Of a stretch of 64,000 nt of DNA, positions 5,835 through 37,351 are shown one piece after another; position 1 is the first letter of the stretch; each line of letters opens with the position of its first letter. The notes beneath the pieces were generated by a model, which was given only the letters and a program-made list of their open reading frames with translations, ran no database searches and was not told where the DNA came from. The stretch comes from Beijerinckiaceae bacterium (GTDB lineage: Bacteria > Pseudomonadota > Alphaproteobacteria > Rhizobiales > Beijerinckiaceae), in assembly GCA_947452005.1 (NCBI GenBank), contig CANGBC010000006.1:62001-126000 (forward strand), written 5' to 3'. Made by a program: the position numbers and the translations under genes.

Positions 5835-6554
5835 TCAGTTCTGCTCGAATTTCAGCTTTGAGGGCTTGATTGCCAGAACATTTTTCATCTGCGCGACAAG
5901 CTTTCCCTTCTTGTCGAAATTGACCGGAAAGGCGAAGCCCGTTTCCGTGCCCGGATCGCAAACCGCCTGGCTGACCTTTTCGGTCCCCTTGAAGGTCGTG
6001 AACCAGTAACGCTCTTCCGGATTGCACAGCATGCCATCGCATTCAGAAATGCCATAGGTCATGTTCTTCTGCGTGAAATAGACCGTCGTGACGCTGCGAC
6101 GATTGTCGTCTTCTTGCGACAGAAAAAACGGCCCGTTCTGATCGCTCGAATGGCTCAGCTCGTTTTTGCCCGTGTCATAAGAATGGTTGAGCGTGACCGA
6201 CAAATAAGGCTCTTCGGTTTCGAAGGTCTTGCAGAAAATGAGCGGCTTATCATTGATCTTGCAGCTAAAGGCGATGGAATCGCGCGTGCAGATCCGATCA
6301 TCGACATAACCCGGCTGCTCGGCAACGACGCTGGCTGCCGGCGCCACCTCGCGCTTTTGCGCGGCGACGGGGGCTGGCGCAGCAGGTTTGGCAGCAGCAG
6401 GCTTCGCCTTGATGGCGGGCGCTTCTGCGGGCTCTTTGCTTTTATTGACGATGGGCGGAACAATCGTCTGCATGGTCCGCATCATGTCATTGAACTGCGC
6501 ACATGCCGTCGCTGGAACAGCGAAAATCATCGCTGCAAGAACTGTGGTTTTCAT
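5835..6554 (-). CDS. Secreted hypothetical protein with Ala/Pro linker
   Basis: Protein of 239 residues with a signal peptide (MKTTVLAAMIFAVPATACAQ). An Ala/Pro/Lys-rich linker covers roughly residues 40-80, followed by a compact domain with six Cys, including RICTRDSIAFSCK and SECDGMLCNPEERYW, likely disulfide-bonded in the periplasm. The frame stays open to 6914 but that would run through a tRNA gene; the ATG at 6554 has GGAG eight bases upstream. I do not recognise the family. Confidence 0.65.
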   Translation of the reverse strand: MKTTVLAAMIFAVPATACAQFNDMMRTMQTIVPPIVNKSKEPAEAPAIKAKPAAAKPAAPAPVAAQKREVAPAASVVAEQPGYVDDRICTRDSIAFSCKINDKPLIFCKTFETEEPYLSVTLNHSYDTGKNELSHSSDQNGPFFLSQEDDNRRSVTTVYFTQKNMTYGISECDGMLCNPEERYWFTTFKGTEKVSQAVCDPGTETGFAFPVNFDKKGKLVAQMKNVLAIKPSKLKFEQN

Positions 6555-25192: not shown

Positions 25193-25368
25193 GGTTTCCT
25201 CCTGAGCCCCGGGTGCAACCACAAGCGGGGCGAAAGACTTGAAATAGCGAGCGAGCCTGTCCCGGTTTGTCCGAGGTCAAAGCAAGCGCCTTGTCCCTCA
25301 CATAGAACGAACATGGCCCGAAGTCACGCGAGACAGCTTGCGTGAGACGGACACGTGGAGACGATCAC

Positions 25369-26193
25369 ATGGCGATCAAGGACCTTCTTTTTCTGCTCGA
25401 TCCGGAGGGCGAAACACAGCCGGCAGCCCCTTTTGCCACCGCTTTTGCCGATCACCTCGGTGCGCATCTGACGGCTGCGGGCGTGATTTATGAAATGCTC
25501 GTCCCCTCGGGCTTCACGGGCGATTACCCCGCCGACATTATGGCCGCGCTGACCGACCAGTCACGCCAGCGCAATGCCGCCGCCTACGAGCAAATGTGCA
25601 AGGCGGCCCCGGAAAGTCTGCGCACAGAATTGGTTGAGATCGATGCCATTCCCGGTGAGGCCCGCTACGAGCTGGCGCGCCTGGCCCGCCATTTTGATCT
25701 GACGATCATCGGCCAGCCACGCGAGCGCAATGGCGAGGATGCGCTGATGGCTGAAGCCGCCTTGTTTGAGAGCGGTCGACCGGTCCTCTTCGTGCCGCGC
25801 ATCCAGACGCGCGCGCCCACTCTCAACAAGATCGTCGTGGCATGGGATGGCAGCCGCACCTCCGCACGCGCTTTGGCAGATGCCCAACCCATGCTGGAAA
25901 AAGCCCGTGCCATTGATGTGATCAGCATCGCAGATCCGCGCCTCGGCTATAAGGAACTGCCCGGCTTCAACATCACGCGCCATCTCTCCCGCCATGGGCT
26001 CAATGCTGAACTCAAGCGCCTGCCCATGTCAGGCGATGTCGGTGAGACTTTGCTGTCCTATGCAGCCGATGCGGGTGCTGATCTTTTGGTAATGGGCGGC
26101 TATGGCCATTCGCGTCTTCGAGAATTTGTGCTGGGCGGCACCACGCGCACGATTTTGCAATCGATGACGCTGCCCATTCTCATGTCGCATTAA
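25369..26193 (+). CDS. Universal stress protein, tandem UspA domains
   Basis: A 274-residue protein with two UspA-like halves. The second half has the clearer nucleotide-loop features (VVAWDGSRTSARALADA at about 155-171, and GGYGHSRLREFVLGGTTRTIL near the end). Such double-domain proteins often sit beside cbb3 oxidase clusters in Hyphomicrobiales, as here, and are frequently induced at low oxygen. The ATG at 25369 (MAIKDLLFLLD) follows GGAGA. A weak FixK-like sequence at 25267-25280 lies about 95 bases upstream. Confidence 0.88.
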   Translation: MAIKDLLFLLDPEGETQPAAPFATAFADHLGAHLTAAGVIYEMLVPSGFTGDYPADIMAALTDQSRQRNAAAYEQMCKAAPESLRTELVEIDAIPGEARYELARLARHFDLTIIGQPRERNGEDALMAEAALFESGRPVLFVPRIQTRAPTLNKIVVAWDGSRTSARALADAQPMLEKARAIDVISIADPRLGYKELPGFNITRHLSRHGLNAELKRLPMSGDVGETLLSYAADAGADLLVMGGYGHSRLREFVLGGTTRTILQSMTLPILMSH

Positions 26194-26199
26194 ATCAAA

Positions 26200-27330
26200 T
26201 CAGGCGAGCGCCGGAGCCAGATAGGCTCCGGCGAGTGCCGACACCAGCAAACAGGCATCATGCGCCGCCAAGGCCCAGCGTGGTGGCGCGAGCCTTTGCA
26301 TCCATAAGGTCGACGCCGCTGTGGCCAGACACCAGCCAATGGCGAGCACAATCAACCCCGCCGCAAAAACTGTGGCGTCTGTTGCCCCTTGCAAAACAAG
26401 CCGCGCCACCAGAACCAAAGCCAGACCGCCCAGCGCCGTAGCCGCTTCGCCAAAGGCGCGCGCCAGAAAGGCTATGCCAAAACCGGGCGCATACATGGCC
26501 ACCACATGCCAGGCGAGAAGCCCTGTGACGCCAGCGGCCGAAATCCCGCAGGAGATCATCGCAGCCGGTGAGGCCAGCATCAGCGCGGTCATGCCAAACC
26601 ATGCGGCGGCGGCAATGATGGTTGGTGCAAATCCATCACTCAGCGCAAACTCATGTGCTGCGTCTGCGCGCACAGGCACAGCGACCGTCTCATGCGGCCC
26701 CCACGCCATGGCAAGCGCCAGCACACCCACCTGCACAAAAGCCGCCGCCAGCGCTGCCGGCACAAAAGGTGTGGCAGGCATCACATGCTCACCTGCCAGC
26801 AACAGGCCCGGACCCAGCAAGCCCGCCAAAGCCCCTGAGCCAAAGACAACGCCGAGCAACATGGCGCGGCCCATCACGCCGCCGCCCATCGCGGCCTCAT
26901 GGCGATAGAACAGACCAAAACCCTGCGCCACGCCAAGCCAGAACGCGCCCAGACAAAAAGGAATGAAGGACTGCGCCATCAGCGCCCAGGCCAACACCAA
27001 CCCGCCTGCAATGCCGTGCGATGCACCCAGCGCAAATGACGCGCGCCGTCCAAATGAATCCAGCAAGAATGACGCCGGAAAAGTCGCAATCGCCGCACCC
27101 AGCAACATGCCCATATAAGGGAGGCCTGCGAGTTCGGCGCGTGGTGCCATCAACAGGCCCGCCATCGGCAAAATGCCAAGCGTCAAAGTTTGTGCGAGCA
27201 CAGACAGCGCAAAGCCTGCTGACAACAACACAGGGCCGCGCGCCTTGGCCCCATCAACCGGCATGCCGGGCGGACAGAAGCACACAAGTCTGCCCGCGCG
27301 GGCGGCGATTTCTGGCAAGAGGCTTTTCAC
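26200..27330 (-). CDS. ccoA: MFS transporter, CcoA-like copper importer candidate
   Basis: Major-facilitator protein of 376 residues with about 12 membrane segments. It carries Met247-x3-Met251 and His275-x3-Met279, with a 28-residue step from the first Met to the His, and Cys261 between them. As I recall, CcoA of Rhodobacter capsulatus, the copper importer needed for cbb3 oxidase assembly, has essential motifs M233xxxM237 and H261xxxM265 with the same 28-residue spacing. The start is a GTG at 27330 that overlaps the ccoS stop (GTGA), so it is translated with the cbb3 assembly operon. The motif match and context support CcoA; overall homology was not tested. Confidence 0.7.
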   Translation of the reverse strand: MKSLLPEIAARAGRLVCFCPPGMPVDGAKARGPVLLSAGFALSVLAQTLTLGILPMAGLLMAPRAELAGLPYMGMLLGAAIATFPASFLLDSFGRRASFALGASHGIAGGLVLAWALMAQSFIPFCLGAFWLGVAQGFGLFYRHEAAMGGGVMGRAMLLGVVFGSGALAGLLGPGLLLAGEHVMPATPFVPAALAAAFVQVGVLALAMAWGPHETVAVPVRADAAHEFALSDGFAPTIIAAAAWFGMTALMLASPAAMISCGISAAGVTGLLAWHVVAMYAPGFGIAFLARAFGEAATALGGLALVLVARLVLQGATDATVFAAGLIVLAIGWCLATAASTLWMQRLAPPRWALAAHDACLLVSALAGAYLAPALA

Positions 27331-27476
27331 TTTTTCACATCCTCATCCGAGAGAATGCGATGGGCAGGGCCCTCAGAATCTTCATATTGACCGCTCTTCA
27401 ACGACCACATGAAAGCAAACAAAGCCGTGATGCCAAGCGCCAGTGCCAATGGAACAAGATAAATGAGCACATTCAT
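27327..27476 (-). CDS. ccoS: cbb3 oxidase maturation protein CcoS
   Basis: A 49-residue single-span membrane protein starting MNVLIYLVPLALALGITALF, followed by the characteristic W-x2-K-SGQYED segment and ending in DEDVKK. It is needed for inserting haem and copper cofactors into cbb3 oxidase. Its ATG overlaps the ccoI stop (ATGA at 27473-27476) and its TGA overlaps the downstream GTG start, so the three genes are translationally coupled. Confidence 0.93.
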   Translation of the reverse strand: MNVLIYLVPLALALGITALFAFMWSLKSGQYEDSEGPAHRILSDEDVKK

Positions 27477-29722
27477 GCGCGCCGCTCCCCAGCTGCCAGT
27501 GCGAGCGATGCGGGCGAGGCGACACTGCGCTCGACCTGAGTTGGACGCGCCACGCCCCGCATGCGCAAGGCATTCAACGTGACAATGATCGAAGACCCCG
27601 ACATGGCCGCAGCCGCAATCAGCGGCGTCACATAGCCCGCCATGGCCAGCGGAACAGCAAAAGCATTATAGAGGACGGCCAGCATGAGATTTTGCCGCAT
27701 CAAGGCGCGTGATTGACGCGTGATATCGAGCGCTTGCGCCACCGGGATCAGACGATCTGACAAGAAAACGGCATCCGCCTGCGCCTGTGCCAGATCAGCC
27801 GCCGTGATCGGCGACAGCGACGCGTAAGCCGCAGCCAGTGCCGGCGCATCATTGATGCCATCGCCCACCATCAACACTTTGCGCCCCTGATCCCGCAAAG
27901 CCTCAATCGCAACGATCTTCTGGGCGGGGTTCATGCCCCCTTCGGCCAGATCAATATCAAGCTGGGCGGCAATGGGTGCCACGGCTTCGGGGCGATCGCC
28001 CGAAAAAATGCGCATGTCCAATCCGCGTGCGCGCAGCAAAGCAATGGTTGCACGAGCATCCGCGCGCAGACTTTGGCGGATTTCGATCGCAGCCTGGCGC
28101 GCGCCATAGCGCAGATAGATGAGCGACACATCCGCGCTCGAGGGCGCGTGCGCATCCGCCGCGCAAAATGCCGCGCTGCCGAGCCGCACATCCACACCAT
28201 CCACAGTCGCGCGCACGCCTGCACCCGCCACTTCTTCCGCGCCTTCAAAAGGCAGAGCGCGCGGCGCCAAACGTGCCACCGCATGGGCCAGCGGATGACG
28301 GCTTGATTGCGCGAGCCGCGTCGCCAGCGCCAAAAGATCAGGCGCAATGTCACTGGCATTAACCACATTGGGATCAGGCAGCGTCAGCGTGCCAGTTTTG
28401 TCGAAAACCACTGTGTCGATCTCGGCCAGACGCTCCAGCGCATCAGCACTGTTGAGATAAATGCCCGCCCGGAACAAATGCCCCGCCGCCACAACCTGCA
28501 CAGCTGGCACCGCCAAAGCCAAAGCGCATGGACAGGTGATGATGAGAACCGAAATCGCCACAATGATCGAATGATGAAAGCCAGCGCCCATCAGCAGCCA
28601 GACAACGAGCGTCGCGGCCGCCGTCACATGAACAACCGGCGCATAGACGCGCGCCGCACGATCAGCCAAGCGGCGATAGCGCGAGCGGGCTTCGCCCGCT
28701 TTCTCCACAAGGCGCGCCACCTCGTCCAGCATCGTGCCTTCACCCGCTGCGGTTACTGCGACTGTCAGAGCGCCATCGAAATTCATCGACCCCGCATAGA
28801 CACGCGCGCCGCTGCCCACCCGCGCGCGCATCGTCTCGCCGGTCACCAGGCTTGTGTCCATTTCGGACGTACCCGACAGAACGATGCCATCAGCAGGCAC
28901 TCGGTCCCCCGGGCGCACCAGAATATGGTCACCCTCTTTCAGCACACTGACGGGCACCGCCACCAACGCGCCATCTTCGCCGAGCCGCTGCGCAATCTCA
29001 CCTTTGAGCGCGGCGAGATTGCCTGCAGCCGCACGTGTGCGCTTGCGCATGGCTTGATCGAGATAACGCCCCGTCAGCAGAAACAGCAGCAGCATGATGG
29101 CGGAATCGAAATAGGCTTCCGCACCATGCAGCGCGGTTTCAACGACCGACATGGCGAGCGCCAGCAGAATGCCCAGTGAAATCGGAAAATCCATATTCAG
29201 CTTGCCCGCGCGCATGCTGGCCAGCGCCGAGCGAAAGAAGGGCTGCCCCGCATAGGCCGCTGCAGGCAAGGCAATCAGGGCTGACAGCCAATGGAAAAAA
29301 TCACGCGTCTCAGGCGTCATATCCGTCACATTGCCGGACCAGACTGACACCGACAGCAGCATGATATTCATGGCCGCAAAGCCCGCCACGCCAAAACATT
29401 TCAGCAGCCATTGTGTGCGGCGCGCCTCTTCCTGTTCGACGCGACTTTGCTCGAACGGATACGCGCGATAGCCGCCTTTGGCGAGTGCCGTGACGAGATC
29501 CGAGGCATTGGTCTTGTCGCCATCCCAAATCAACCGCAAACGATGCGTCGTCAGATTGAGCCGCGCTGAAACAATGCCCGGCACCGCGCGCATCGAGCCT
29601 TCAATATCCTCCATGCACGCCGCACAATCGACGCCATCAATGGCCAAATCCATCGATGCCCGCCCCGCTTCGGCGGTGCGAACGAAGGATGAAAAGTCGA
29701 TTGCCTCGCGCAGGTCGCTCAT
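27473..29722 (-). CDS. ccoI: Copper P1B-type ATPase of cbb3 assembly (CcoI/FixI)
   Basis: Copper-exporting P-type ATPase of 749 residues that delivers copper for the CuB site of cbb3 oxidase. An N-terminal metal-binding domain has DGVDCAACMEDIEGS (Cys33 and Cys36); the membrane CPC motif is TCPCALALAVP; the phosphorylation site is DKTGTLT and the hinge MVGDGINDAPAL. The lack of a canonical GMTCxxC is normal for FixI. It starts at the base next to the ccoH stop and overlaps ccoS. Confidence 0.97.
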   Translation of the reverse strand: MSDLREAIDFSSFVRTAEAGRASMDLAIDGVDCAACMEDIEGSMRAVPGIVSARLNLTTHRLRLIWDGDKTNASDLVTALAKGGYRAYPFEQSRVEQEEARRTQWLLKCFGVAGFAAMNIMLLSVSVWSGNVTDMTPETRDFFHWLSALIALPAAAYAGQPFFRSALASMRAGKLNMDFPISLGILLALAMSVVETALHGAEAYFDSAIMLLLFLLTGRYLDQAMRKRTRAAAGNLAALKGEIAQRLGEDGALVAVPVSVLKEGDHILVRPGDRVPADGIVLSGTSEMDTSLVTGETMRARVGSGARVYAGSMNFDGALTVAVTAAGEGTMLDEVARLVEKAGEARSRYRRLADRAARVYAPVVHVTAAATLVVWLLMGAGFHHSIIVAISVLIITCPCALALAVPAVQVVAAGHLFRAGIYLNSADALERLAEIDTVVFDKTGTLTLPDPNVVNASDIAPDLLALATRLAQSSRHPLAHAVARLAPRALPFEGAEEVAGAGVRATVDGVDVRLGSAAFCAADAHAPSSADVSLIYLRYGARQAAIEIRQSLRADARATIALLRARGLDMRIFSGDRPEAVAPIAAQLDIDLAEGGMNPAQKIVAIEALRDQGRKVLMVGDGINDAPALAAAYASLSPITAADLAQAQADAVFLSDRLIPVAQALDITRQSRALMRQNLMLAVLYNAFAVPLAMAGYVTPLIAAAAMSGSSIIVTLNALRMRGVARPTQVERSVASPASLALAAGERRA

Positions 29723-30226
29723 TCATTTCACCGCAGAAATATCGATGCGATTGACGGAGCGGAACAGCAGCTTTGACTCTCTCTGGGCCTCAATCTGCAA
29801 ATCCCAGCGACCTGCTGCCACCGGCGCAGAGGCGCGATAGACGCCATTGCCAACCGACATGAGAGCCACACGCACATCGCGGCGACGATCGGCGGGATGG
29901 GTGAAGGTTGCACTCATCGCGAGATCAGAAGTTGCAGCACCTGTGCCATCGTGCTGGGTGACGACCAGCATGATACCCTCGGCCTGAGGCTCGACGCGCG
30001 CATCAACGCTCCAATTGCGCTCGGCCTGCTGGCGCGCCGCTGCAATCACTTCGTTATATTTCAATCCATCCTGATACGGCTTGTCAGCCTCAAGGCCTGA
30101 AAAGGTCTGGATGGCGACGCGCGCCATGTAAAAATTGACTGAGAAGATGACGCCAAAAAAAGCCAGCAGCATGGCAAGCACATGCGCGCCTTTCAGCGTG
30201 AAACACGCAGGCGTGAGTGTCGTCAT
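29723..30226 (-). CDS. ccoH: cbb3 oxidase assembly protein CcoH (FixH)
   Basis: Membrane protein of 167 residues with one N-terminal transmembrane helix (HVLAMLLAFFGVIFSVNFYMA) and a periplasmic domain containing the FixH pattern SGLEADKPYQDGLKYNEVI. It works with CcoI in cbb3 assembly. The start overlaps the ccoG stop by four bases and its stop abuts ccoI, a tightly coupled ccoGHIS series. Confidence 0.94.
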   Translation of the reverse strand: MTTLTPACFTLKGAHVLAMLLAFFGVIFSVNFYMARVAIQTFSGLEADKPYQDGLKYNEVIAAARQQAERNWSVDARVEPQAEGIMLVVTQHDGTGAATSDLAMSATFTHPADRRRDVRVALMSVGNGVYRASAPVAAGRWDLQIEAQRESKLLFRSVNRIDISAVK

Positions 30227-31728
30227 TTTTTCTCTCCGTGCGGTTGCATGAAATGATCCTTCACCTGAACCTGCGAGCCAGAACGCAAATCAATCAGACG
30301 GAAGGTGATGTCGCGTTTGTCATCATCATGATGCTCGCCCTTGGCCATCGCATCTTGAGGAATGGTGACAAAGAGCCGTTCTTCAAATGTCTGATCAGGC
30401 CCCACGACCAAAACTGGCCAGCCGGAATCCGCGCGCTTGCCTTCCGTTGACGCCACAAAGTCGGCAGCAAATCCATCCACACGAATTTCAAACGACCGAT
30501 TTTCGGGCAATTTGTTGGACAGCCGCACCGTATAGGCATTGCGAATGCCGCCATCGGCGAGCCGCACGAACAAAGGATTGCGATCATGAATGACCGCGAG
30601 ACCTGAATCATGACGCGTCGCCAAAACGCCGACCATAATGGCGCCCACAACAAGCATCACCACCGCATAAAGAATGGTGCGCGCGCGGACGAAACGAGTC
30701 TTCAGCGCCGGCAATCCACTTTCACGCCGCTTGACGTTGATGTCGGTGTCATAACCAATCAGCCCGGTCGGGCGCCCAAGCTTGTCCATCACGTTGTCAC
30801 AGGCATCAATGCAAAGGCCGCATTGGATGCAATCGACCTGTAGCCCATCGCGAATATCAACGCCCGTCGGGCACACATAGACGCAGGCATTGCAATCAAC
30901 GCAATCGCCCGCCGGTTTTCCCGCCTCACGCAAGACGTCATTTTTCTTCAACGACCCACGCGGCTCACCCCGATCATAGCGATAAGTGACATTCAGCGCC
31001 CATTCATCCGTCAGCGCTGCCTGAATGCGCGGCCATGGGCACATATAGGTGCAGACCTGCTCGCGCATGAAGCCCGCAAAAATATAAGTGGTCGCTGTGA
31101 GAATGGCGATCCAGATATAGGCAATCGCAGGGCCCTGAAACGTCGCCAGCTGATAGACGAGCGTCGGCGCGTCAGAAAAATATAAAACCCAGGCACCACC
31201 GGTCCACCAGGCAATCATCAGCCAAGCCCAGTGTTTCAGCAAGAATTGCGCGAAGGTTTCAAGGTTGAAGGATTCATTGTCCTTGATAAGGCGTGTGCGC
31301 CGATCTCCTTCGATCAAGCGCTCCACCGCAAAGAACAGATCGGTCCACACCGTCTGCGGGCACAGATAGCCACACCACAAACGCCCGGCAATCGCATTCA
31401 TCAAAAACAGCGCCACCGCTGCCAGAATGAGAAGGCCAGTGATGTAATAAACTTCCTGCGGCCAGATTTCGATGAAGAAAAAATAGAAGCGGTGGTGATC
31501 CATATCGATCAGCACGGCCTGCGAGGGTGCGTTGGGGCCACGATCCCAGCGGATGAACGGCAGGAAATAATAAATGCCCAGCGTGATGCAGAGAATGATC
31601 CATTTGATATTGCGAAACCGCCCGCTCACCGCTGCGGGAAAGATTTTCGCGCGCGACGCATAAAGCGGCGCATCAAGGCCTATGGCCTCGAGCTCGGCTT
31701 CGCGCGCCTGCTGCTGCTTCACACTCAT
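30223..31728 (-). CDS. ccoG: cbb3 oxidase accessory ferredoxin protein CcoG (FixG)
   Basis: Membrane iron-sulfur protein of 501 residues, thought to reduce copper during cbb3 assembly. About five transmembrane segments, the NapH-like cluster region (CGYLCPQTVWTDLFFAVERL, CTYMCPWPRIQ) and a bacterial ferredoxin domain with two [4Fe-4S] motifs (CVDCNACVYVCP and CIQCGLCIDACD) are visible. The C-terminal periplasmic domain is the IG-like CcoG end. It follows ccoP by 73 bases that hold a terminator-like hairpin, so ccoGHIS may be a second transcript or partly read through. Confidence 0.97.
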   Translation of the reverse strand: MSVKQQQAREAELEAIGLDAPLYASRAKIFPAAVSGRFRNIKWIILCITLGIYYFLPFIRWDRGPNAPSQAVLIDMDHHRFYFFFIEIWPQEVYYITGLLILAAVALFLMNAIAGRLWCGYLCPQTVWTDLFFAVERLIEGDRRTRLIKDNESFNLETFAQFLLKHWAWLMIAWWTGGAWVLYFSDAPTLVYQLATFQGPAIAYIWIAILTATTYIFAGFMREQVCTYMCPWPRIQAALTDEWALNVTYRYDRGEPRGSLKKNDVLREAGKPAGDCVDCNACVYVCPTGVDIRDGLQVDCIQCGLCIDACDNVMDKLGRPTGLIGYDTDINVKRRESGLPALKTRFVRARTILYAVVMLVVGAIMVGVLATRHDSGLAVIHDRNPLFVRLADGGIRNAYTVRLSNKLPENRSFEIRVDGFAADFVASTEGKRADSGWPVLVVGPDQTFEERLFVTIPQDAMAKGEHHDDDKRDITFRLIDLRSGSQVQVKDHFMQPHGEKK

Positions 31729-31801: not shown

Positions 31802-32686
31802 TTAGCGGCCGCCACCCAGCGTGCGGACATAAACAGCCAGCGCTTTGATCGTGCCCGCATCAAGGCGGTCACCCCAATTGGGCATCAAGGCACCACGGCC
31901 TTTGGCGATCCCTTCAACAATGGTCACTTTATCAGATCCGTAGAGCCAGATCTGATCGGTCAGGTTGGGCGCGCCCAATTCCTGATTGCCCTTGGCATTG
32001 TCGCCATGGCAGGCGGCGCAATTTTCCGCGAAGACTTTCTGGCCCGCTTTCAAATCGGCACCAGCATCGACAGAAAGATTGGACAGCGAGCGCACATAAT
32101 CCGCGACCCACGAGATTTCAGTGGCCTTCAGCACACCATCACCAAAGGCTGGCATATTGCCTTGCCGCGTATCGGGATCGGTCGAGCGAATGCCATGCGT
32201 GATGGTCGCCTGAATATCATCCAGCGTGCCCTTGCCCCACAGCCAGTCATCATCAACCAGATTGGGGAAAGCCTTGGAGCCACCACCACCCGTGCCGTGG
32301 CAGGGCGCGCAATTGTCACCAAAAGCCGCTTTGCCTTGGGCGCGCGCAAAGGTCAGCAATTTGGGATCTTTCTGGATGTCATCAAAACTGGCTTTGGCCA
32401 GTGCATTCACCATGGGTGCACGCGCAGCTTTCAGCGCATCAACATCAGCTATGACTTCGCCACGCGAGGAATAATTGATCGCACCCTTGGTGAAGGATGA
32501 GACCAGCGGGATGGCGGGATAGACCACCCAATAGCCCAGCGCCCAGACAATGGTGGCGTAGAAAATATAGAGCCACCATTTCGGCAAGGGCGTGTTCAAT
32601 TCACGAATACCATCCCATTCATGGCCCGTCGTAGACGTGCCCGTGGCGGCATCAACATGTTTCGGGTCGTTCGAGGTGACGCTCAT
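31802..32686 (-). CDS. ccoP: cbb3 oxidase dihaem subunit CcoP
   Basis: Membrane-anchored dihaem cytochrome c of 294 residues that passes electrons to CcoN. An N-terminal helix (WWLYIFYATIVWALGYWVVYP) is followed by two haem c sites, CAPCH and CAACH, with Met ligands in NMPAF and MPNWG contexts. The ATG at 32686 lies three bases after the ccoQ stop. Haem attachment depends on the Ccm proteins encoded at 55.6-59.6 kb. Confidence 0.97.
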   Translation of the reverse strand: MSVTSNDPKHVDAATGTSTTGHEWDGIRELNTPLPKWWLYIFYATIVWALGYWVVYPAIPLVSSFTKGAINYSSRGEVIADVDALKAARAPMVNALAKASFDDIQKDPKLLTFARAQGKAAFGDNCAPCHGTGGGGSKAFPNLVDDDWLWGKGTLDDIQATITHGIRSTDPDTRQGNMPAFGDGVLKATEISWVADYVRSLSNLSVDAGADLKAGQKVFAENCAACHGDNAKGNQELGAPNLTDQIWLYGSDKVTIVEGIAKGRGALMPNWGDRLDAGTIKALAVYVRTLGGGR

Positions 32687-32689
32687 GGC

Positions 32690-32839
32690 TCAATCCTCGT
32701 TCAGCGGGAGACGAGAAGCGCGGTCGAAAGACGACTGCATGGAGGGCCACAGCGCATAAGCGACAATGCCCGTGAAGGTGATGCACACGAGGATCAGACT
32801 GACGATCTGTGCATCCTGGAGAAGCGAAGCAATGTTCAT
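32690..32839 (-). CDS. ccoQ: cbb3 oxidase small subunit CcoQ
   Basis: A 49-residue membrane peptide between ccoO and ccoP. It has one transmembrane segment (IVSLILVCITFTGIVAYALW) and a polar tail with DRASRLPLNED, the usual CcoQ shape. ATG at 32839; the stop is followed within three bases by the ccoP start. It stabilises the cbb3 complex in other bacteria. Confidence 0.93.
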   Translation of the reverse strand: MNIASLLQDAQIVSLILVCITFTGIVAYALWPSMQSSFDRASRLPLNED

Positions 32840-32846
32840 CTCGTGA

Positions 32847-33578
32847 TTACCTCAGATTGGCTTTGTCATCGTAGATTTTGAAATCCACCTGCGTGCCCAG
32901 ATGCTGCATATAGGCGATCAAGGCATCGGCTTCCGTGAGCCTGCCCTTCTCGCCAAAGGCGCGCGCCTGAGCTTTCGGGTATCGCTTGATGAGATCAGCC
33001 GCACCCGGATCATCATCTGTGCCTTGTGCCTTGGCGTCTGCTGAGGCCTTCTCGATCATCTCGGGCGTATAAGGCACGCCTTCAATCGCCAGCACGCTCA
33101 TGTGCTGATCAATATGGGAGAGATCCACTTCATTTTTCGCAAGCCAGGGATAGGCCGGCATGATTGAGCCGGGCACAACAGCGCGCGGATTTTCCAGATG
33201 GCGGCGGTGCCAGTCATCGGAATATTTATTGCCCAGCCGCGCCAGATCAGGCCCGTTGCGCTTTGAGCCCCATTGGAACGGATGGTCATACATGCTCTCG
33301 GCTGCGAGCGAATAATGGCCATAGCGTTCCACTTCGTCACGCAAAGCGCGGATCATCTGCGAATGGCAATTGTAGCAGCCTTCGCGCACATAAATATTGC
33401 GCCCAGCCAGCTCCAGCGGCGTGTAAGGGCGTACGCCCTCCACTGTTTCGATGGTGCTCTTCAGATAAAAGAGCGGGGCGACCTCAACAAGTCCGCCAAT
33501 CGAAATGACGATCAGCACACCAATGAGCAACAAAATCGAGTTTTTCTCGAAAATCGCGTGCTTGTTCCAAAGTGACAT
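32847..33578 (-). CDS. ccoO: cbb3 oxidase monohaem subunit CcoO
   Basis: Membrane-anchored monohaem cytochrome c of 243 residues. The start [13 protein letters not shown] is the standard CcoO N-terminus, followed by an anchor helix and the haem site [11 protein letters not shown]; an upstream ATG at 33593 that overlaps the ccoN stop is a less likely start because GAGGGG sits eight bases before 33578. It accepts electrons from CcoP and passes them to the catalytic subunit. Confidence 0.97.
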
Positions 33579-33589
33579 TGTCTTGCCCC

Positions 33590-35263
33590 TCATTCAGCCG
33601 GCACGAGTGCGGGGGTTACGCCAGCTTCGATTTCGGCAGCCGGTGTAACAATGGTTTTGTAGAGGTTCCACGCCATGATCAATGCGCCTGCGAGGAACAG
33701 GCCGCCGCCGAAGGCACGGATGATGTAGAAGGGATGCATGGCCTCAACTGTTTCGAGGAATGAATATTCCAAGAAGCCGAGTGCTGTGTAAGCGCGCCAC
33801 ATCAGACCCTGCATAATGCCCGCCACCCACATCGCCGAGATGTAGCAGACAATGCCCAGCGTCGAGACCCAGAAGTGCCAGTTGACGAGTCGCAGCGAAT
33901 AAAGCTTCGGCTTGTTCCACAGCCACGGCACGAGGCAGTAGATTGCACCGAATGAGACATAACCCACCCAGCCCAGCGCACCCGAATGCACGTGACCAAT
34001 GGTCCAGTCCGTATAATGCGAGAGCGAGTTCACAGCCTTCACCGACATCAGCGGACCTTCAAAGGTCGACATGCCGTAGAAAGCCACTGACACAACAAGC
34101 ATGCGCAACACAGGATCGGTGCGCAGCTTGTCCCATGCGCTAGACAGCGTCATCAGACCATTGATCATGCCACCCCATGAGGGCATCCACAGCATGATTG
34201 AGAAGGTCATGCCCAATGTCTGCGCCCAGTCAGGCAGCGCCGTGTAGTGGAGATGGTGCGGGCCCGCCCAGATGTACATGAAGATCAGCGCCCAGAAATG
34301 GATGATCGACAGGCGGTAGGAATAGACCGGACGCTCCGCACGCTTCGGGATGAAATAATACATGATGGCGAGAAAGCCTGCAGTCAGGAAGAAACCGACG
34401 GCATTATGACCATACCACCACTGGATCATCGCATCCTGCACGCCTGCCCAGACGATGTAGGACTTGGATGAGAAGATCGACACGGGGATCGTCGTATTAT
34501 TGCCCAGATGCAAAACGGCAATCGTCAGGATGAAGGCCAGATAAAACCAATTGGCGACATAAATATGTGGCTCTTTGCGTTTGATGATCGTGCCCAGAAA
34601 AACAATGAAGTAGGTCACCCAGACAATCGTCAGCCACAGATCTGTATACCATTCGGGTTCTGCATATTCTTTGCCCTGCGTGATACCGAGCAGATAGCCC
34701 GTGCCTGCAATGACAATGAAGAAATTATAGCCCAGCACCACAAACCAAGGCGCGAGATCACCAGCCAAACGCGCCTGACAGGTGCGTTGCACGACATAGA
34801 AAGATGTGGCGAGCAGGACATTGCCGCCGAAGGCAAAGATCACGGCGGATGTGTGCAATGGGCGCAAGCGGCCAAAGGATGTCCAGGGCAGACCGAAATT
34901 CAATTCGGGATAGGCCAGCTGCAGCGCGATGATGAGCCCGACCAAAAAGCCTGCAATGCCCCAGAACACAGAAGCAATGGTCGCAAATTTGATTGGCTCG
35001 AAATTATAATTGGGCTTGCCATCCTTTGTCTGCGCGGGAAGCTCAGCTGGGCGATCATGATAGCGGTTGAGAACCAGAAACACCGTCGCGACGCTCGCGA
35101 TGGCGAAAAGCCCCGCGTGAAACGCATATTCGGGCGTCCACGCATTGGCGGTGATGATGACCCACAGGACAGCAGACATGGCTGCGACCACTGCGAGGGC
35201 CATCTCTCCGAGCGTCATGCTCTTTTGACCGGGCAACAGCCCTGCCGATCCTGATTGTGCCAT
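33590..35263 (-). CDS. ccoN: cbb3 oxidase catalytic subunit CcoN
   Basis: Haem-copper oxidase subunit I of the high-affinity cbb3 type, 557 residues, reducing oxygen at low concentration while pumping protons. Ligand residues are in place: His137 (low-spin haem, RPLHTSAV), His286 (Cu[11 protein letters not shown]), His336-His337 (Cu[10 protein letters not shown]), and His424/His426 (haem ligands, [12 protein letters not shown]). The ATG at 35263 has GAGG about eight bases upstream; the open frame to 35329 is not conserved. First gene of the operon, behind a FixK-type box. Confidence 0.98.
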
Positions 35264-35363
35264 GTCTATGCCTCGGGTGCGAAAAATCGTCACGACGTGG
35301 CGCGACTCTCTTCGCGCGCTTGACGTCACAGCGTGACAATCAACCCTGCGGCCTGTTTCTTCA

Positions 35364-35377
35364 TTGATTCAAGTCAA
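35364..35377. promoter_or_regulatory. FixK/FNR-type box upstream of ccoN
   Basis: TTGATTCAAGTCAA fits the TTGAT-N4-(A/G)TCAA consensus in both half-sites. Its centre is about 107 bases before the ccoN start, which would give a start site roughly 66 bases upstream of the gene for a class II promoter. It embeds a GATTC (GANTC) site. Known fixNOQP operons in Hyphomicrobiales are controlled by FixK through such boxes. Confidence 0.8.
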
Positions 35378-35836: not shown

Positions 35837-35965
35837 TGAGCTCACTCCCCGAAAAGTCCCAAATGGCCAATCGGCCGGGATGCCAGCCCAATCGGCGGAG
35901 GGTCCCTTGGGTTCCCTTTGTTCATGAATTGAGATTAGCGGATTACGATCAGGAAAAATATTGAT

Positions 35966-37351
35966 ATGGCTCAACTTATGGCAACCTTGAACGATACCTA
36001 CTCAACCACGCCGCAGATGGCCGCGATCCTCTCCGATGGCCGCCTGCTGACCCATATGGCTGGCTTTGAAGCCGAATTGGCGGCCGCCCAGGCCGATGCC
36101 GGGCTGATCGAGCGCAAACTGGCCGAGACGATCGCCACAGTGGCCGCGGGCCTCACCTTCGATGAGCCCGCCCTTTTCGCCGAAGCCCTCAAGGGCGGTA
36201 CGCTGGCGATTCCTTTTGTGAAGCAGCTCACAGCCGAAGTGCGCGCACAGGATCCGGTGGCAGCGACCGCTGTTCATTTCGGGGCCACCAGCCAGGATGT
36301 CATCGACAGCGCCTTGGTTCTGCAATTGGGCGAAGCCCTTGTGCTGATTGATGCCGACATGACGCGCCTGGCAGAGGCGGCTGCCAAACTCGCCCGCGCG
36401 CATGCCAAAAGCGCCATGCTGGGCCGCACCTTGATGCAGCCTGCGACCCCCATCACCTTTGGCCTCAAGGCCGCGCAATGGCTGCAGGCCATCGCCCAAT
36501 CGCGCACACGTCTGCGCGCCCATGCAGGTGAAGCGCTTGTGGCGCAACTGGGTGGCGCTGCGGGCACGCTGGGCTCGCTGGGCGCTCATGGCGCGCCAAC
36601 CGCGCGCGCTTTGTTCAAACGGCTTGCCGCCCGCAACGCCTATGCGCCCGCACGCGCGGCCGTGTGCGAGGGCACGCCTTTGCCGTGGCACACACGTCGT
36701 GGTGCTTTGGTGGCGCTGGCGGGAGAGCTTGCGATTGCCACCGGCATCTGCGGAAAAATCGCACGCGATGTTGCGCTGATGATGCAGTTTGAATTGGGCG
36801 AGACTTTTGAACCGGCGGAAGCTGGACGCGGCGGCTCGTCCGCCATGCCGCATAAGCGCAATCCTGTGCGCTGCATGCTGACCGTCTCAGCCGCGCTGCG
36901 CACCCCGGGCCTCATGGCGACTCTTCTGTCGGGCATGGTGCAAGAACATGAGCGCGCCTTGGGCGGCTGGCAGAGCGAATGGGGCGCATTGCCCGAACTC
37001 GTGAAACTCTGCGCCGGCGCCCTCGACAATATGGCGCAGACGCTGGAGGGCCTGAACGTTGATGCCGCCCGCATGCGCGCCAATTTCGATGCGCTGAACG
37101 GCTTGCCGATGACCGAAATGCTGGCGTTGGCGCTCGCGCCCCATCTCGGCCGCCCAGAAGCTTTTGCATTGGTTGAAAAAGCCGCCCGTGACGTAGGCGC
37201 ATCTGGCAAGAGCCTTGCGGATGTGGTGAAGGCTGATCCGGCAGCAAAAGTTTTGAGCGCTGCGGAGATCGACAAAATTCTCGATCCGCTCAATCAGCTG
37301 GGCGCGACGCAGGACTTTATTGAGAGCGCATTGGCTGGTTGGAAGAAATGA
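35966..37351 (+). CDS. pcaB: 3-carboxy-cis,cis-muconate cycloisomerase-like lyase
   Basis: Member of the fumarase/adenylosuccinate lyase superfamily, 461 residues. The signature GRGGSSAMPHKRNPVRCM and the catalytic region ATAVHFGATSQDVIDSALVLQL are those of PcaB, which acts on the protocatechuate branch of the beta-ketoadipate pathway. None of the other pca genes is nearby, so the physiological substrate is less sure than the family. ATG at 35966 has AGGA eleven bases upstream; 35978 is an alternative. A repeat cluster follows the gene. Confidence 0.8.
   Translation: MAQLMATLNDTYSTTPQMAAILSDGRLLTHMAGFEAELAAAQADAGLIERKLAETIATVAAGLTFDEPALFAEALKGGTLAIPFVKQLTAEVRAQDPVAATAVHFGATSQDVIDSALVLQLGEALVLIDADMTRLAEAAAKLARAHAKSAMLGRTLMQPATPITFGLKAAQWLQAIAQSRTRLRAHAGEALVAQLGGAAGTLGSLGAHGAPTARALFKRLAARNAYAPARAAVCEGTPLPWHTRRGALVALAGELAIATGICGKIARDVALMMQFELGETFEPAEAGRGGSSAMPHKRNPVRCMLTVSAALRTPGLMATLLSGMVQEHERALGGWQSEWGALPELVKLCAGALDNMAQTLEGLNVDAARMRANFDALNGLPMTEMLALALAPHLGRPEAFALVEKAARDVGASGKSLADVVKADPAAKVLSAAEIDKILDPLNQLGATQDFIESALAGWKK

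Follow-up and report, generated by a model that had tools for sequence, protein, structure and literature searches.

The cbb3 oxidase cluster of a Beijerinckiaceae bacterium ends in calT, a minus-strand gene (26200..27330) for a 376-residue protein that homology, motifs and synteny predict to be a CcoA-like MFS copper importer of a short, ccoS-linked type. The product is most probably the dedicated copper importer of the cbb3 oxidase. We put at roughly three in four the probability of the whole explanation, namely that a CalT-family importer of the short ccoS-linked subgroup uses two histidines, H144 and H357, together with an N-terminal Cys-x-Cys (CxC) tail to hand Cu(I) towards the copper ATPase CcoI. 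Statements taken from published work draw on the accessible parts of the papers cited.

calT is the final gene of a ccoNOQP-ccoGHIS cluster

The window, the whole 64,000-nucleotide stretch of DNA that was analysed, comes from a genome assembly of 25 contigs that is 58% complete. Its minus strand holds, in the order of transcription, ccoN (33590..35329; PF00115 COX1, 1.3e-116, plus position), ccoO (32847..33593; FixO profile PF02433, 3.6e-96), a putative ccoQ of 49 codons assigned by position (32690..32839), ccoP (31802..32686; TIGR00782, 1.1e-108), ccoG (30223..31728; TIGR02745, 3.7e-158), ccoH (29723..30226; FixH profile PF05751, 2.3e-35), ccoI (27473..29722), ccoS (27327..27476; 49 residues; PF03597, 2.9e-21; TIGR00847, 7.3e-23) and calT. 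The ccoI product is a P1B-type copper ATPase (TIGR01511, 3e-151) with one N-terminal HMA domain (residues 26-85), and is named CcoI by its position. Upstream of ccoN lies an FNR/FixK-like box, TTGATTCAAGTCAA (35364..35377), recognized by consensus match only; a second such box (35961-35974), also upstream of ccoN, shares bases with the start of a lyase-family gene (35966).

The calT frame starts with a GTG at 27330, preceded at a distance of 9 nt by GAGGA, and reads down to 26200. The overlap with the ccoS stop codon that had been noted in a first-pass annotation of this DNA was borne out, the two genes sharing 4 nt (GTGA). Overlap and synteny suggest that calT is co-transcribed and translationally coupled with the cbb3 oxidase assembly genes. 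A universal stress protein gene on the plus strand (25342-26193) converges on calT, with 6 nt between the two ORFs, so that calT could hardly have a C-terminal extension that was overlooked. The nearest named relative of the window CalT, from an uncultured Rhizobiales bacterium, is 86% identical, and its named relatives belong to the Beijerinckiaceae and other Hyphomicrobiales; a scan of viral_contigs gave no relatives.

CalT carries the copper motifs of CcoA-type proteins

In CcoA of Rhodobacter capsulatus (TCDB 2.A.1.81, as numbered in PMC5829832), MxxxM and HxxxM motifs in TM7 and TM8 lie 28 residues apart, and a Cys follows 14 residues after the first Met. The window CalT has the same arrangement, with M247xxxM251 (26578..26592) in predicted TM7, H275xxxM279 (26494..26508) in predicted TM8 and C261 (26548..26550) in the predicted periplasmic loop between them. 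The first-pass annotation had named these residues and the 28-residue step exactly, and the CcoA numbering that it gave (M233, M237, H261, M265 and C247) agrees with the accessible text of PMC8406296. Its pairing of C261 with CcoA C247 holds both in an alignment with CcoA-type proteins and by the shared 14-residue distance. Substitution of C247 leaves about 6% of cbb3 activity (PMC8406296), and copper import has been established experimentally for CcoA and three other CalTs (PMC6362234, PMC8406296).

The two motifs at this spacing arose in 94 of 200,000 shuffles of the window protein, and in none when the Cys was included; only one of the 120 stop-to-stop frames of at least 150 aa in the window contains them. 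For comparison within the subgroup we assembled 69 ccoS-linked rows, which after removal of 11 identical duplicates left 58 distinct sequences, 55 of them including the N-terminal tail; the denominators of 55, 56 and 58 used here differ because some rows lack a region. M247, C261, H275 and M279 are invariant in 56 of 56 sequences and M251 is found in 55 of 56, the exception being an Ile. All 39 full-length CalTs examined, a sample made up of 9 fetched sequences and the best 30 of a longer match list, share both motif and spacing.

As a stand-in for R. capsulatus CcoA we used orthologues with most of the CcoA residue fingerprint, obtained by a protein search of one family (that of genome G082), whose query itself carries most of this fingerprint and which had matches in 142 of the 149 genomes; a DNA pattern for CcoA had been too strict, matching only 2 of the 149, and was replaced by the protein search. 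The 70 loci fetched gave 69 rows (L199 gave none) and, with four genes present twice, 65 distinct sequences. Individual rows have between 5 and 13 of the 15 fingerprint residues, 51 of the 69 having 11 or more, and the fingerprint suggests that the family is Rhodobacteraceae. All 69 rows have C247, while C49 is present in 57 and C367 in 67; the latter two cysteines are conserved in Rhodobacterales and found in 0% of the other orders compared (PMC8406296).

BLASTP matched the window CalT to all 69 rows (65 distinct sequences) with E values from 6e-22 to 7e-7 and about 30% identity, and a profile-profile comparison (hhalign) gave an E value of 1.5e-36 and a probability of 99.9 and aligned the motif residues with one another. 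The significant similarity, the placement of the motifs in TM7 and TM8 and the near-invariance of their residues thus support the original reading of a CcoA-type importer, in which copper would be the substrate and import the direction of transport. Opposite C49, C225 and C367 of CcoA, the window CalT has Glu66, Ala240 and a gap, respectively, and C126 lies opposite the C109 position. Lacking cysteines opposite C49 and C367, as well as C225, the protein is classed with the CalTs and outside cluster 1, the Rhodobacterales type that comprises CcoA proper. It further differs from CcoA in its N-terminal CxC, in H144 and H357 and in its ccoS linkage.

A search of MFS profiles, proposed in the first-pass annotation, succeeded for the relatives and failed for the window protein alone, which had no Pfam or NCBIfam match at 1e-3: MFS_1 was matched by 15 of 20 aligned proteins at E ≤0.1 (best 1.9e-14), the window protein not among the 15. 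These matches in relatives, together with a fold match, resolve the lack of a profile match. Indeed, a Foldseek comparison of the predicted structure with solved MFS transporters gave a best E value of 7.2e-6 and 108 matches at E ≤0.001. A sequence search of the PDB with the alignment yielded six weak matches (GLUT3, FLVCR1; E 0.003-0.0071).

The predicted structure lacks helix 12 and places the N-terminus in the cytosol

An AlphaFold model of the window CalT (mean pLDDT 79, pTM 0.81) contains 11 transmembrane-length helices, instead of 12 for CcoA. MxxxM falls within TM7 (230-260) and HxxxM within TM8 (265-293), the placement for which the first-pass annotation had suggested a topology check; C261 lies in the intervening loop. 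Helix 12 is missing, and all 39 full-length CalTs examined continue for another 33-52 residues. We count this loss against an importer, as it is unusual for an MFS transporter. Residues 1-29 form a low-confidence tail (pLDDT under 50) that is unstructured in the model. By the model helices, 11 Lys/Arg residues lie on the N-terminal side of the membrane and one on the other side, and the positive-inside rule favours a cytosolic N-terminus in all 55 subgroup members long enough for the comparison. The N-terminal tail is therefore predicted to face the cytosol.

The ccoS-linked CalTs match published cluster 11B

Two papers, PMC5829832 (2018) and PMC6362234 (2019), describe Rhizobiales homologues of CcoA that are truncated at the C-terminus and encoded immediately after ccoNOQP/ccoGHIS. 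The latter named the group CalT cluster 11B, added 12 of its sequences to a tree and presented it as the only example of calT beside cbb3 biogenesis genes. The window CalT shares the site right downstream of ccoGHIS, both copper motifs, the absence of helix 12 and the affiliation with Hyphomicrobiales/Rhizobiales; by every described feature compared, sequence analysis identifies it as another member of cluster 11B, an assignment that rests on the published description and not on comparison with the 12 sequences of the papers. We know of no difference from cluster 11B, and add a CxC tail and two extra His residues for the subgroup members examined. As the arrangement is in print (PMC5829832, PMC6362234), the ccoS-calT coupling is not new. 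The first-pass annotation had seen in it a complete copper-supply unit; the linkage to ccoS and the other cco genes stands, whereas "complete" exceeds the evidence. Our literature search yielded no transport experiment or other activity reported for this subgroup.

Directly upstream of calT we found ccoS in 47 of 48 named loci, the contig of the 48th beginning inside the gene; cultured carriers include a laboratory strain, Ancylobacter aquaticus. The exact 4-nt overlap recurs in 41 of the 47 with script-called starts, which were chosen near the ccoS stop and so favour short distances. Around 61 full-length CalT loci, most covered by about 1.5 kb on each side and five genomes being represented twice (L022/L117, L023/L122, L025/L123, L026/L118 and L030/L121), the only cco-like match was a 34% ATPase match at L089. 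In a tree built by a quick method from 27 of the 58 ccoS-linked rows, with tails removed, a single branch with SH-aLRT support of 100 parts these rows from the 39 full-length CalTs; warnings concerned composition and the long branches of L021, L074 and L076. A single origin of the ccoS-linked CalTs thus suffices.

RfnT-like CalTs (CalT-O, CalT-R and CalT-A) share the family and its copper motifs and belong to other subgroups; their copper uptake was demonstrated in E. coli (PMC6362234). According to the same accessible text, other CalT subfamilies fail to complement an R. capsulatus ccoA mutant, so that function may not carry over between CalT subgroups.

ccoS-linked CalTs share an N-terminal CxC tail

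The first-pass annotation, which named motifs and linkage, mentioned neither the missing helix 12 nor the N-terminal CxC. The latter is part of the sequence RAGRLVCFCP (residues 11-20, with C17 and C19; 27271..27300), which precedes TM1 and, by alignment and topology, is predicted to be cytosolic. The consensus among ccoS-linked CalTs is R-A-G-R-L-x-C-x-C-P, with C19 in 55 of 55 and C17 in 54 of 55 sequences, and with G13 (55), R11 (54), P20 (53), R14 (52) and L15 (51). The rest of the tail is variable: the mean frequency of the majority residue is 0.85 for residues 11-20, compared to 0.42 for residues 1-10 and 0.43 for residues 21-33. The sole ccoS-linked CalT examined without C17 is that of Microvirga aerophila (L059), where the calT frame near 5977 lacks a start codon at the position predicted by the other members and has an aberrant N-terminus that looks like damage or a sequencing error.

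None of the 39 full-length CalTs has a CxC in its first 60 residues. Since VCFCPPGM was one of six peptides used for searching, the motif might have been a search artefact; this was ruled out by a search with a tail-free alignment (A2) of 397 genomes of the order, in which the 8 best loci (280-465 bits, the window included) all had both CxC and a ccoS neighbour. The next 22 loci (210 bits or less) had neither, inspection for CxC covering the best 30 fetched loci. A by-product of RNA or of the ccoS overlap was likewise ruled out, as the overlap is only 4 nt and the motif codons vary synonymously (for C17, TGC in 42 and TGT in 12 sequences), and a lipoprotein signal by the lack of a hydrophobic stretch before the Cys.

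We found no description of the tail in the CalT/CcoA/CcoI literature available in part (PMC5829832, PMC6362234, PMC8406296, PMC8475189, PMC7558416 and PMC12617631), whose figures, alignments or supplements may show the motif without comment. In the main text of PMC6362234 no word starts with "N-terminal", "Cys" or "CXC"; in that of PMC5829832 none starts with "CXC" or "cysteine". The subgroup-specific CxC tail and the His pair thus seem to be new relative to published cluster 11B.

The His pair lies at the predicted cytosolic ends of TM4 and TM11

Alignment and model place H144 (26899..26901) at the predicted cytosolic end of TM4 and H357 (26260..26262) at the predicted cytosolic start of TM11. 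H144 is present in 58 of 58 ccoS-linked CalTs, whereas full-length CalTs (38 of 39) and CcoA-type rows (69 of 69) have a Phe; H357 is present in 55 of 56, at a position where full-length CalTs (36 of 39) and CcoA-type rows (69 of 69) have an Asn. At residue 351, the Glu of full-length CalTs is replaced by Arg in the ccoS-linked subgroup.

A candidate route for Cu(I) from CalT towards CcoI

The accessible parts of PMC5829832 and PMC8475189 do not settle how cytosolic copper travels between CcoA and CcoI. Based on the clustering of calT with cco genes, PMC5829832 suggested a joint function for CcoA and CcoI and a possible interaction of the two. In R. capsulatus, Cu(II) is reduced by CcoG, and the two N-terminal sites of CcoI matter without being essential (PMC8475189); CopZ is described as involved and not essential in PMC8475189, but as essential in PMC12617631.

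We suggest that the N-terminal tail may be a cytosolic hand-off site for Cu(I). By homology to CcoA, periplasmic copper would move past C261 to a site formed by M247/M251 and H275/M279 in TM7/TM8 and would leave CalT on the cytosolic side, where H144, H357 and the CxC tail could form an inner relay that takes up Cu(I). The simplest next recipient of Cu(I) from this relay would be the exporter CcoI encoded next to calT, with a path through CcoG/CopZ as the alternative, and CcoI would send copper towards the CuB site of CcoN. Two unrelated proteins offer analogies in the way they may work: eukaryotic Ctr1 is an importer with a cytosolic thiol tail (HCH), and Cox11 has a short Cys-x-Cys copper site (CFC). 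Copper binding by the CalT tail is putative in both comparisons.

A more specific version, that CxC and H144/H357 are a built-in device by which ccoS-linked CalTs deliver Cu(I) directly to the co-translated CcoI and make CopZ unneeded, is tentative and, in our estimate, less likely than not. If true, import and re-export would be channelled for one enzyme, which would keep free copper in the cytosol minimal or absent and dispense with CopZ. The N-terminus of CcoI has one CxxC in 39 of the 43 loci examined (of 48 named). In the other four (L050, L053, L056 and L057), CcoI retains an HMA-like N-terminal stretch and lacks the CxxC while the CalT tail keeps its CxC, so that an obligatory transfer from tail to CxxC cannot be general. 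A small stand-alone, CopZ-like HMA frame (72-168 aa) is present in 6 of 13 near-complete genomes with a ccoS-linked CalT, and the tail is thus not a simple replacement for CopZ. HMA matches fall only in frames of at least 722 aa in 5 of the 13 (G031, G026, G495, G536 and G728), and the remaining two have HMA frames of 252 and 273 aa; with six genomes with, five without and two ambiguous, no clear rule emerged by which the absence of CopZ would track the tail.

Alternative explanations

That the window protein is an MFS transporter of another substrate with a chance motif is very improbable. Riboflavin would be one such substrate, as RfnT-like CalTs were first proposed to be riboflavin transporters (history in PMC6362234), yet according to the same paper these proteins import copper and do not transport riboflavin efficiently. 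The rarity of the motif among the shuffled sequences and the ccoS linkage in 47 of 48 named loci likewise argue against a coincidence. We also consider it unlikely that the protein, though homologous to CalTs, has lost copper import and instead assists the assembly of CcoI/CcoS or serves them as a scaffold, or moves copper in another direction. The loss of TM12 in the subgroup, seen in model and alignment and described in the accessible part of PMC5829832, would fit such a change, as would the residue changes at the cytosolic end, where full-length CalTs have Phe and Asn in place of H144 and H357 and Glu in place of Arg at 351. The TM7/TM8 copper residues, however, are retained apart from the single M251 to Ile among 56 sequences, which would be unexpected if transport had been lost.

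A greater challenge to the proposed hand-off comes from a reading that accepts copper import by CalT but takes the CxC as a redox switch, as a site that binds zinc or has a structural role, or as a motif by which CcoS, CcoG or CcoI dock and for which the cysteines are needed in some other way; we regard it as a serious possibility, at somewhat less than even odds. Cysteine pairs serve many roles in proteins, the tail is unstructured in the model, and the CxxC acceptor is absent from four of the 43 CcoI partners. On the other hand, the motif is confined to the cco-linked subgroup among the proteins examined, and a stable disulfide is less likely in the cytosol, where the tail is predicted to lie.

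For copper hand-off by the tail, the confinement of CxC to the clustered subgroup among the proteins examined, on the predicted right side of the membrane, offers a residue-level test of the proposed CcoA-CcoI cooperation. What is added to the published arrangement is a subgroup-specific Cys tail and His pair, predicted to be cytosolic, that make the hand-off directly testable. Should the hand-off fail, the subgroup would still be a ready system for the study of a cbb3-dedicated importer in its native operon.

CalT copies in individual genomes

Genome G026 contains a second, more distant CalT-like match (contig C31, 26656-27625) in two pieces with one internal stop, so that in this genome the ccoS-linked CalT may be retained and the other one may be on its way to being lost. 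The metagenome assembly 'Rhizobium sp. Q54' isolate MsE-30apr19-218 has a ccoS-calT pair on each of two contigs (L045 and L046), reflecting either a duplicated cluster or a mixed bin.
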